DNA from: a bacterium
GTDB taxonomy: Bacteria > Armatimonadota > Fimbriimonadia > Fimbriimonadales > Fimbriimonadaceae
DNA: 64,000 bases
Assembly (NCBI GenBank): GCA_027483535.1
Contig: JAIXUN010000002.1
Location: forward strand, 2,356,001-2,420,000
Direction of reading: 5' to 3'
Shown: piece after piece, positions 22,711-25,682 of the stretch
How positions within the stretch are numbered: the first letter of the stretch is position 1
How the letters are laid out: each line of letters begins with the position of its first letter
The notes under the pieces: generated by a model
Databases searched by the model: none
What the model was told of the DNA's origin: nothing
The model's input: the letters and a program-made list of their open reading frames with translations, nothing else
Program-made: the position numbers and the translations under genes

Positions 22711-23095
22711 CGTTCTCTCCGGCCTCCCATAGGGGTTGTTTCTGCTGCTTGAAGTCTGTTCCGAACGGTCCTTACGGTCAGCGATCGGGCACAAACTGCC
22801 AAGAGATTGAAACGCACAAGAGGCGCAATCAAGAATTATGGCGAAAGATGGCTCGCTTTTGCCACATCAGAGGGCATTTTGGTGAAATCCGCAGATTCTC
22901 CTAGGGAAAGAGGAAGACATCAAAACGGATTTGCCCTTAGTACGTCTAGGATATCGCACGCCGTGAAGAATCGGTATCGCGGGATTGCGTCTTTGTATAT
23001 TGCGTCTTGTACTAGGACTTCGAATGGGGTCGGTATGATTCGCAAATCGGCGCCCCAGATGCCTCGTTTTGAGCACGGCAGCCTTTGAGAGTGAA
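22711..23095. other. Divergent intergenic region, no gene seen
   Basis: These 385 bp separate rplU (minus) from the C11-like lipoprotein gene (plus). They must hold both promoters and the bL21 leader. I see no convincing small ORF, no tRNA and no strong hairpin. Confidence 0.5.
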
Positions 23096-24865
23096 ATGAG
23101 TATTCGGAAATTTCTCCCGATTCTGTTTGCCTTGCTCGTGTTCGTGATCGTCGGATGCGGCGGGGGTGGGTCGAAACCTCAATTTGTTTATGAAACCGAC
23201 TGGACGAATCGAACGGCGGTGGGACAAATCACGGGTCGATCTCAGCGAATCACTTTCTTCGACTCAACTAACTCTGCAGCCTTTACTCGCGTGATCAACA
23301 ACACGTTCGACGGTCCGATGTCTTTCACTTACGACATCAACCCCGGCACGTACATGATCCAGGTCGAGTTGTTCTCTGAACTGAATGCCTCGGGAACGCT
23401 CACCGGGCTCGTTAAGAGTTATCGCTCCATTTCGGGATCTTCGAAGTTTCGAACAAGCGTCGGCTCCGCCATTGCGGGCATCGGGGTCACCCCCACCGAT
23501 TCCTCATTCAAGGTCGGCTCGGGAAGGACATACGTCGCGGCGGGGACGACTTCAGATAGTCGCACCACCTTTATTGCACCGAATTCGATCACATGGTCGC
23601 AAACGGGCGCGGTCGTCTCTTTGGATTCATCCGGAGCCGGATCGAACGCCGTTATCGCAACCGGAACCGCCCTCGGTTCGGGATCCGTTCGCGGAACGCA
23701 CTCTCCTTCCTCTCTCCTTGGTGCAGCAACGGTTGCGGTGACACCGACCACTACGACCCGCTCGAAGTGGACCGTCATGGTCTATCTGAACGCGGCGAGC
23801 GATCTGTATACATTCGCTCCTCTTAACTTCAACCAAATGGAAAGCGTTGCTCAGAACGACGATGTTCGATTTGTTGTTCAATGGAAGCTCTCCACTGATT
23901 TGTATTCAGACGCCCTGTTCAACGGCACGCGGCGCTACCTGGTGAAACCCGATACCACGAATGCCATCCGATCCGAGCTGATTCAGGACATGGGATCGAA
24001 CGTGGACATGGGCGACTACCGAACGCTCCAAAACTTCGTGGGCTGGGCGAAAGCGAACTACCCGGCGGATCGGTACTGCTTGGTGATTTGGAGTCACGGC
24101 AATGGCTGGCGACGCTCTACCGTGCCAGAGCCGACACGCGCGGTCAGCTTTGACGACGTCACCGGATCCGCGATCCAGATTTGGGAACTCCCGGCGGCGA
24201 TTGGCTCTGAAAAGCTCGACATCGTGTCGTGGGATGCCTCGCTCATGCAGATGATGGAGGTTGCCTACGAACTGAAGGACAGCGCTAAGTTTGTGACCGG
24301 GAGCGAAGAGAGCCCTCCCGGAGAAGGCTTGCCGTACGACCTCGTATTCCAACGCTTCCGAGACAATCCGGACGAATCGTCTTCGAATCTCACCAAGGCG
24401 TTCGTGGATGGAATGCTGGCTGTTCCGGGTTACGCGCTTAGAAAGATCACCCAGAGCAGCGTAGACACCACCAAACTCGGCGCCCTTGCAACCGCAATAG
24501 ATGGCCTTGCGGCGGCGATGATCGCCAACTCGGCGGATGTGAATCCGATCCTCGGAACGGTGCGCACCCAGGTCCAACGCTACTCACCCAGTGGAAGCCG
24601 TCAATACGCGGACATCTACGACCTCGCGGCGAAGATCAAGGCCAACACCACCAACCTCGCCGTGCAACTGGCCTGCGATGAGGTGCAGGCTAAATTGCTA
24701 GAGGCGGTGGTCTGGAACGGCAATAACACGCAGTCGCCCCGCAGCTTTGGATTGTCGATCGACTTTTCAACAGCCACCGGATTCGCGCCCGCGAAGCCGG
24801 ACTACCTGAACTTGCAGTTGGCAGAAGACACTCGCTGGGACGACTGGCTTTCTTTGGTCCCTTAA
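23096..24865 (+). CDS. Clostripain-like (C11) lipoprotein lacking the catalytic Cys
   Basis: This lipoprotein has a lipobox (FVIVGC followed by four Gly), a beta-rich N-terminal part and a C11/clostripain-related domain from WTVMVYLNAASDL onward. The catalytic His motif WSHGNGW is intact (His334 from this start). The second catalytic site, usually DACLM, reads DASLM with Ser382 encoded by TCG. The conserved surroundings (MMEVAYEL, GSEESPPGEG) remain. It may be an inactive binder or use Ser as nucleophile. I chose the ATG at 23096, which places the signal peptide at the start; a TTG at 23069 is also open. Confidence 0.85.
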   Translation: MSIRKFLPILFALLVFVIVGCGGGGSKPQFVYETDWTNRTAVGQITGRSQRITFFDSTNSAAFTRVINNTFDGPMSFTYDINPGTYMIQVELFSELNASGTLTGLVKSYRSISGSSKFRTSVGSAIAGIGVTPTDSSFKVGSGRTYVAAGTTSDSRTTFIAPNSITWSQTGAVVSLDSSGAGSNAVIATGTALGSGSVRGTHSPSSLLGAATVAVTPTTTTRSKWTVMVYLNAASDLYTFAPLNFNQMESVAQNDDVRFVVQWKLSTDLYSDALFNGTRRYLVKPDTTNAIRSELIQDMGSNVDMGDYRTLQNFVGWAKANYPADRYCLVIWSHGNGWRRSTVPEPTRAVSFDDVTGSAIQIWELPAAIGSEKLDIVSWDASLMQMMEVAYELKDSAKFVTGSEESPPGEGLPYDLVFQRFRDNPDESSSNLTKAFVDGMLAVPGYALRKITQSSVDTTKLGALATAIDGLAAAMIANSADVNPILGTVRTQVQRYSPSGSRQYADIYDLAAKIKANTTNLAVQLACDEVQAKLLEAVVWNGNNTQSPRSFGLSIDFSTATGFAPAKPDYLNLQLAEDTRWDDWLSLVP

Positions 24866-24921: not shown

Positions 24922-24947
24922 AAAAAAAGGGCCCCGTGATGGGGCCC
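24922..24947 (-). terminator. Terminator pointing to a minus-strand transcript
   Basis: A 7-bp pure GC stem (24929-24935 with 24941-24947) with loop GTGAT has A run 24922-24928, which is a T run on the minus strand. On the plus strand there is no T run, so it does not terminate the lipoprotein gene well. Confidence 0.8.
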
Positions 24948-25175
24948 GATGGGCTTGGAGGGTTTCTTATGTCGCCGGGAACTCGTGGGGGATTTGGTCC
25001 CCGGTCGTGTCATCTCGGATCGGAGTCACCCCTTCACCTTCTGACACTGGGTTCTTTCCCCAACTCCAACGGTTTCAACCCGATGTCCTTACCGGTGTCT
25101 GTCTTTTAGGCTCATAAACCGCTTTCCTACCAGGGATTTCCTCCCGAGGGCAAAGCTCGGTCAACCGAAAACCTG
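24922..25175 (-). ncRNA. Candidate structured RNA gene, unknown class
   Basis: The gap between the C11-like gene and rpsR ends on the minus strand in a perfect terminator: GGGCCCC/GGGGCCC stem, then seven Ts. No minus-strand coding gene precedes it. The interval is rich in local hairpins read on that strand: GTGTCA/TGACAC (about 25015-25045), GGGGA/TCCCC nested in CCGGG/CCCGG (about 24975-25005), TGGG/CCCA (about 25049-25064) and GGGA/TCCC (about 25133-25146). I do not find the conserved motifs of RNase P RNA, tmRNA or SRP RNA. A 6S-like or new RNA is possible. The 5' end is a guess. Confidence 0.45.
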
Positions 25176-25252: not shown

Positions 25253-25627
25253 ATGAGTGAAGAACTGAAGAAAGCCGCAGCCGCAGGGCCGATCGATCCG
25301 ATGGCCGCACTGCGAGAGAAAGACGCCGAGCCGGGCGGTCGCACCCGAACCCGCAAGCGCCGCAAGGTGAGCTACCTCACCATCAACAAGATTGACACCG
25401 TCGATTACAAGGAGATCGCGCTTCTTCGCCGATTCCTCAACGATCGCGGCAAGATTCTGCCTAGCCGACAAACCGGAACCACCGCTAAGCAACAGCGAAT
25501 GATTTCCGAGGCGATCAAGCGAGCCCGCGAGATGGCACTGCTTCCGTTCGTGGTCACCGAAATGTCCACCGAGCGACGAGAGAGCCGACGCGAGCGAGAA
25601 GCCGCTCCGCAACCCGCCGCCGAATAA
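25253..25627 (+). CDS. rpsR: Ribosomal protein bS18, zinc-free type
   Basis: The core matches bS18: [32 protein letters not shown] and [12 protein letters not shown]. The Cys pair common in zinc-binding forms (CYFC-like) is SYLT here, and the Cys of GTCAKHQR is also replaced (GTTAKQQR), so this is a C-minus form. It has extra charged tails at both ends: about 40 residues before the core and a C-terminal [12 protein letters not shown] tail. The ATG at 25253 follows AAGGA. It is monocistronic here, away from rpsF. Confidence 0.93.
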
Positions 25628-25652
25628 GGCCTCGAGCTTTCGACAAAACAAG

Positions 25653-25682
25653 AAACCTGAGCAATTCGCTCAGGTTTTTTTG
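25653..25682 (+). terminator. Terminator after rpsR
   Basis: The 10-bp stem AAACCTGAGC / GCTCAGGTTT with loop AATTC runs straight into a T tract. Confidence 0.9.

Follow-up and report, generated by a model that had tools for sequence, protein, structure and literature searches.

A Small RNA Gene in the Order Containing Fimbriimonas

The minus strand of the gap upstream of rpsR carries what is, on comparative evidence, a gene for a small non-coding RNA found in the order containing Fimbriimonas and referred to here as RNA-A. The gene lies within a window of 64,000 nucleotides (the whole stretch of DNA that was analysed) and is modelled, from 5' to 3', as hairpin 1, hairpin 2, a conserved unpaired stretch (ACCCUCC(A)AGCCCA) and a terminator. 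The most likely interpretation of its sequence and conservation is that it represents a new family of base-pairing sRNAs, possibly linked to motility. The RNA and its neighbours are positioned as follows (bit scores are those of the covariance models R1 and R2 presented in the next section):

23069 to 24865, plus strand: clostripain-family (C11) gene (PF03415, E 2.9e-42), convergent with RNA-A
24922 to 25047, minus strand: RNA-A (R1 54.3 bits, R2 60 bits, covariation), whose 5' end may reach about 25120
24947 to 24922, minus strand: intrinsic terminator of RNA-A (seven G-C pairs, a 5-nt loop and seven T)
25004 to 24975, minus strand: hairpin 2 (CCGGGGA...TTCCCGG), supported by covariation
25047 to 25007, minus strand: hairpin 1 (GTGTCA...TGACAC), from single-sequence folds
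25253 to 25627, plus strand: rpsR, encoding ribosomal protein S18 (PF01084, E 2.1e-25), divergent from RNA-A

The C11 gene ends with its stop at 24865 and rpsR starts at 25253, leaving a gap of 387 nt, and it is this gap that the terminator faces, as had been described earlier from the sequence (a minus-strand terminator pointing into a gene-free stretch). The position of RNA-A between a divergent rpsR and a convergent C11 gene is kept in many genera; an rpsR-related ORF cluster was found in 24 fetched genomes and a C11-related one in 28, with a few members being spurious or lying at other distances. In G006 and G018 the upstream neighbour of RNA-A is a flagellin gene, as assigned by Pfam on the G006 gene. 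Additionally, a hairpin resembling a terminator lies 3' of rpsR (window 25650-25680); it scores on both strands and is possibly bidirectional.

Homologues, Covariation and Strand

Among 20 genomes of the genus, a DNA search gave short matches, and for six relatives nhmmer lengthened these to beyond the terminator; G008 was added as a seventh by pattern search. The covariance model R1, built from the six relatives without this genome and without G008, matched window positions 25010-24922 in a whole-genome search (54.3 bits, E 2.3e-11) and also recovered G008 (E 3.6e-4) plus copies in other genera. A second model, R2 (19 sequences), was searched in 113 genomes of the order and matched 64 of them at E <= 0.1, the window copy scoring 60 bits. 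Most of the better R2 loci were fetched and inspected, which led to the acceptance of 46 loci in 46 of the 113 genomes, the weaker members resting on motif and context as well. Two R2 matches with E near 1e-7 (G006:C57 and G076:C60) were recognised by eye as plain terminators following genes and were rejected; since strong terminators score falsely near this value, E-values alone are insufficient for R2.

The earlier note had counted at least four local hairpins and had read the minus-strand terminator as the 3' end of a probable structured RNA. In terms of energy these hairpins are at chance level: the single-strand fold reaches -98.9 kcal/mol compared to -97.4 +/- 5.1 kcal/mol for shuffled sequences (z -0.29), so that hairpin number is by itself no evidence. 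What stands is a conserved subset consisting of hairpin 1, hairpin 2, the unpaired C-rich stretch and the terminator, and the structured RNA itself is supported by the search for compensatory changes that the note had recommended, which over the 46 homologues gave a strong signal. In the 46-sequence alignment, which was fitted to the model structure and so favours it, 94.8% of cells are paired compared to 71.7% after shuffling, double-change cells number 151 against 44, and changes on both sides occur at 12 of the 15 model pairs. When the partner column is shifted by one, two or three positions, pairing falls to 33-54%, and RNAalifold, applied to this alignment, predicts 14 pairs, of which 11 show double changes. 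Over 45 distinct sequences, all seven model pairs of hairpin 2 show both-side changes, with 89.8% of its cells paired; in the terminator helix five of eight pairs do so (98.9% paired). Hairpin 1 was assessed by single folds only; many homologues share its 5' side, which resembles TGTC[AG]G, and its length and loop vary.

These results bear on an alternative according to which the locus would be an ordinary convergent terminator and intergenic spacer devoid of RNA function. Such a spacer would fold at the shuffled level, as is observed, and the false matches at G006:C57 and G076:C60 illustrate that strong terminators elsewhere can imitate a family member. However, covariation at every pair of hairpin 2 and conservation of the C-rich stretch across genera, together with conserved synteny, make this explanation hardly credible.

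Regarding the strand, G-U pairs exceed A-C oppositions in the helices of the alignment (28 versus 9) and the T-run lies 3' of the minus-strand stem; therefore the RNA is read from the minus strand. The same observations weigh against a 5' leader acting in cis on rpsR and read from the plus strand, for instance an autoregulatory S18 leader, a very unlikely reading despite the location of the element just upstream of rpsR here and in many genera and despite the fact that stem covariation by itself is strand-ambiguous. In six congeners, moreover, RNA-A is no longer next to rpsR but retains its structure and has a C11 gene nearby, and inspection by eye of several genomes revealed -10-like sequences directed toward rpsR between RNA-A and that gene. 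Sense-frame stops are present in at least two frames at most loci, while G010 has no stop in any frame.

Comparison with Known RNA Families

No gathering-score match was obtained with the 4227 models of Rfam 15 in the window or in 11 homologue and partner loci, and a relaxed-threshold Rfam search of the 24922-25175 stretch returned chance-level matches only. The Rfam search had been advised by the earlier note, which also saw none of the cores of RNase P RNA, tmRNA or SRP RNA in this stretch; Rfam and ARAGORN agree, the latter detecting no tmRNA in the window. Parts of the minus strand seemed at first to resemble degenerate RNase P cores, a candidate that was dropped because a complete RNase P RNA is encoded on a different contig of the genome (RF00010, sole genome match, C4:395703-396022, 247.6 bits).

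The note had left two options, 6S RNA or a new class. The 6S model RF00013 found nothing in the window, nor in the whole genome of this bacterium at E <= 0.001. 6S RNA forms one long hairpin interrupted at its centre by a large bubble; RNA-A is likewise an unannotated bacterial RNA of similar length, but instead of one long interrupted hairpin it has two hairpins and a seed, its consensus consisting of two helices kept apart by a long unpaired stretch. With 6S RNA unsupported by both RF00013 and architecture, a new family is the surviving option. As a separate observation, the 6S RNA of this genome is either absent or too diverged for RF00013, whereas RNase P RNA is detected.

A literature search on RNA in Armatimonadetes/Armatimonadota and on Fimbriimonas flagella gave no sRNA of the phylum among the matches listed, which is a weak indication. 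With RNA-A, a little studied phylum gains a well supported RNA family that Rfam 15 lacks and that has a precise, testable seed.

The C-rich Stretch and a Candidate Partner RNA

Two overlapping segments at the 3' side of RNA-A are relevant to its possible function:

24965 to 24948, minus strand: unpaired C-rich seed AAACCCUCCAAGCCCAUC, anti-Shine-Dalgarno-like, the most conserved unpaired stretch of the family
24962 to 24942, minus strand: 21-nt stretch CCCTCCAAGCCCATCGGGCCC, complementary to the candidate RNA-B

The strongest sequence conservation of the RNA-A alignment outside the terminator falls in the C-rich stretch, which is mostly unpaired in the predicted folds of genus members. As expected of C-rich trans-acting sRNAs, CCCUCC(A)AGCCC is conserved and is predicted to be accessible for Shine-Dalgarno pairing. 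RNA-A is thus probably a trans base-pairing sRNA whose seed blocks Shine-Dalgarno regions, with RNA-B titrating it or responding to it and a regulon that may include motility. In this mechanism the exposed CCCUCC(A)AGCCC, held between hairpin 2 and the terminator, would pair with G-rich Shine-Dalgarno regions of mRNAs, and by analogy with C-rich and anti-Shine-Dalgarno sRNAs this pairing would block translation. RNA-B, with a complementary stretch before its own terminator, would either titrate RNA-A as a sponge or be one of its targets.

In four Fimbriimonas genomes, this one included (G000, G005, G006 and G018), the reverse complement of the 21-mer was found immediately 5' of a terminator-like hairpin; in G018 the contig ends within the copy. 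In the genome of this bacterium it is intergenic, at C1:1226699-1226719 (L090 around 6718), and in G005, G006 and G018 it lies 3' of fliI. The possibility that RNA-B is the 3' UTR of a fliF-fliI transcript (the operon ending in fliI) was accordingly considered; the positions fit in those three genomes, but this cannot be general because the copy of this genome is elsewhere. The RNA-B copies share 19 to 21 of the 21 nucleotides compared to about 50-72% in the preceding stretch, and the predicted RNA-A/RNA-B duplexes range from -44 to -49 kcal/mol. By pattern search RNA-B was detected in four of the 10 RNA-A-bearing genomes of the genus, and the other genera searched gave none; second sites in G072 and G073, considered as RNA-B of other genera, resemble chance or coding matches and were rejected.

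Two other readings of these sequences have to be weighed. RNA-A could exert its main effect as a protein ligand, bound at its hairpins, with the C-rich stretch serving for binding or stability and not as a seed; the strong hairpin covariation and the recurrence of the RNA with conserved upstream GGAA boxes would agree with this. On the other hand, sequence conservation peaks in the unpaired C-rich stretch and not in the hairpin loops, and the reverse complement of the seed is conserved at a second intergenic locus in four genomes, which makes a protein-binding role rather unlikely as the main one. A still less probable reading holds that the 21-mer common to RNA-A and RNA-B is a site acting at the DNA level (an operator or a recombination site), given that it occurs at two chromosomal sites and that sharing a sequence does not by itself distinguish a function in DNA from one in RNA. 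Against it, the 21-mer abuts a terminator-like hairpin at both loci, on the strand that would be transcribed, RNA-A homologues without the exact 21-mer retain the C-rich core, and the change within RNA-B of G005 preserves pairing through G-U.

The proposed base-pairing sRNA has parallels in other bacteria. In Bacillus subtilis, RoxS and FsrA pair with mRNA targets through C-rich regions, with which G-rich regions of the sponge RosA pair in turn (PMC8216469). The present case is similar in having a C-rich sRNA and a separate, complementary G-rich candidate RNA (RNA-B). It differs in that Rfam shows no relation to RNA-A, that RNA-A has a single C-rich stretch adjoining the terminator with pairing predicted from sequence, and that the RNA-A/RNA-B complementarity is nearly complete over 21 nt and runs into the terminator stem. 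In Alphaproteobacteria, the alpha-r14 or 'cuckoo' sRNAs such as NfeR1 combine an ultraconserved unpaired anti-Shine-Dalgarno motif with stems that vary in sequence, and contain three hairpins with CCUCCUCCC on each (PMC10746234). The motif of RNA-A is also conserved and unpaired, but CCCUCC(A)AGCCC occurs only once and lies outside the hairpins, and RNA-A consists of two hairpins and a terminator instead of three hairpins bearing CCUCCUCCC. If the RNA-A/RNA-B pairing is true, it would add one more independent example of an sRNA under the control of a complementary RNA.

Upstream Boxes and Association with Motility Genes

Conserved boxes precede hairpin 1 and may correspond to a promoter or to an RNA element (about 25052-25135):

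25052 to 25063, minus strand: GGGGAAAG box just 5' of hairpin 1, represented by GCGGAA or GGGGAA in many relatives
25085 to 25135, minus strand: CYGGTA-type boxes in a putative promoter region (CCGGTA within 25097-25085, CTGGTA within 25135-25119)

In the 46 loci, covered as far as 170 nt 5' of hairpin 2, CYGGTA and GGAA boxes recur at a roughly fixed distance. The pair C[CTA]GG[TC]A-N22-40-GG[AG]A is present in 25 of the 46 loci compared to a mean of 1.4 in shuffles (maximum 5), and in most genomes of this set the boxes form no recognisable sigma-70 or sigma-54 promoter. A sigma-54-like GG-N10-GC precedes RNA-A in six genus members and two other genomes; a general sigma-54 promoter was considered, as RNA-A genomes nearly all carry rpoN, but it is only a lead because the site is missing before RNA-A of this genome and is unconserved in most other genera. 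Within the genus, rpoN was detected in 10 of 20 genomes (95 of 113 in the order), and G015 has RNA-A and fliI with rpoN undetected.

Within the genus, where flagellar genes were surveyed, the distribution of RNA-A parallels that of fliI: 11 of the 20 genomes have fliI and RNA-A is found in 10 of these and in none of the nine without it, counts that, like the Fisher tests of the association, ignore relatedness. Because RNA-A is confined, in the genus, to genomes keeping fliI, its regulon may include motility. A more ambitious version of the proposal, in which an order-wide base-pairing sRNA is controlled by a dedicated anti-sRNA in Fimbriimonas, both being tied to flagellar motility as an sRNA/anti-sRNA switch, is possible but should be regarded as tentative. 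The co-occurrence of RNA-A with flagellar genes at the genus level offers an immediate phenotype to test. It was also observed that fliI and rpoN are absent from about half of the genus, mostly together.
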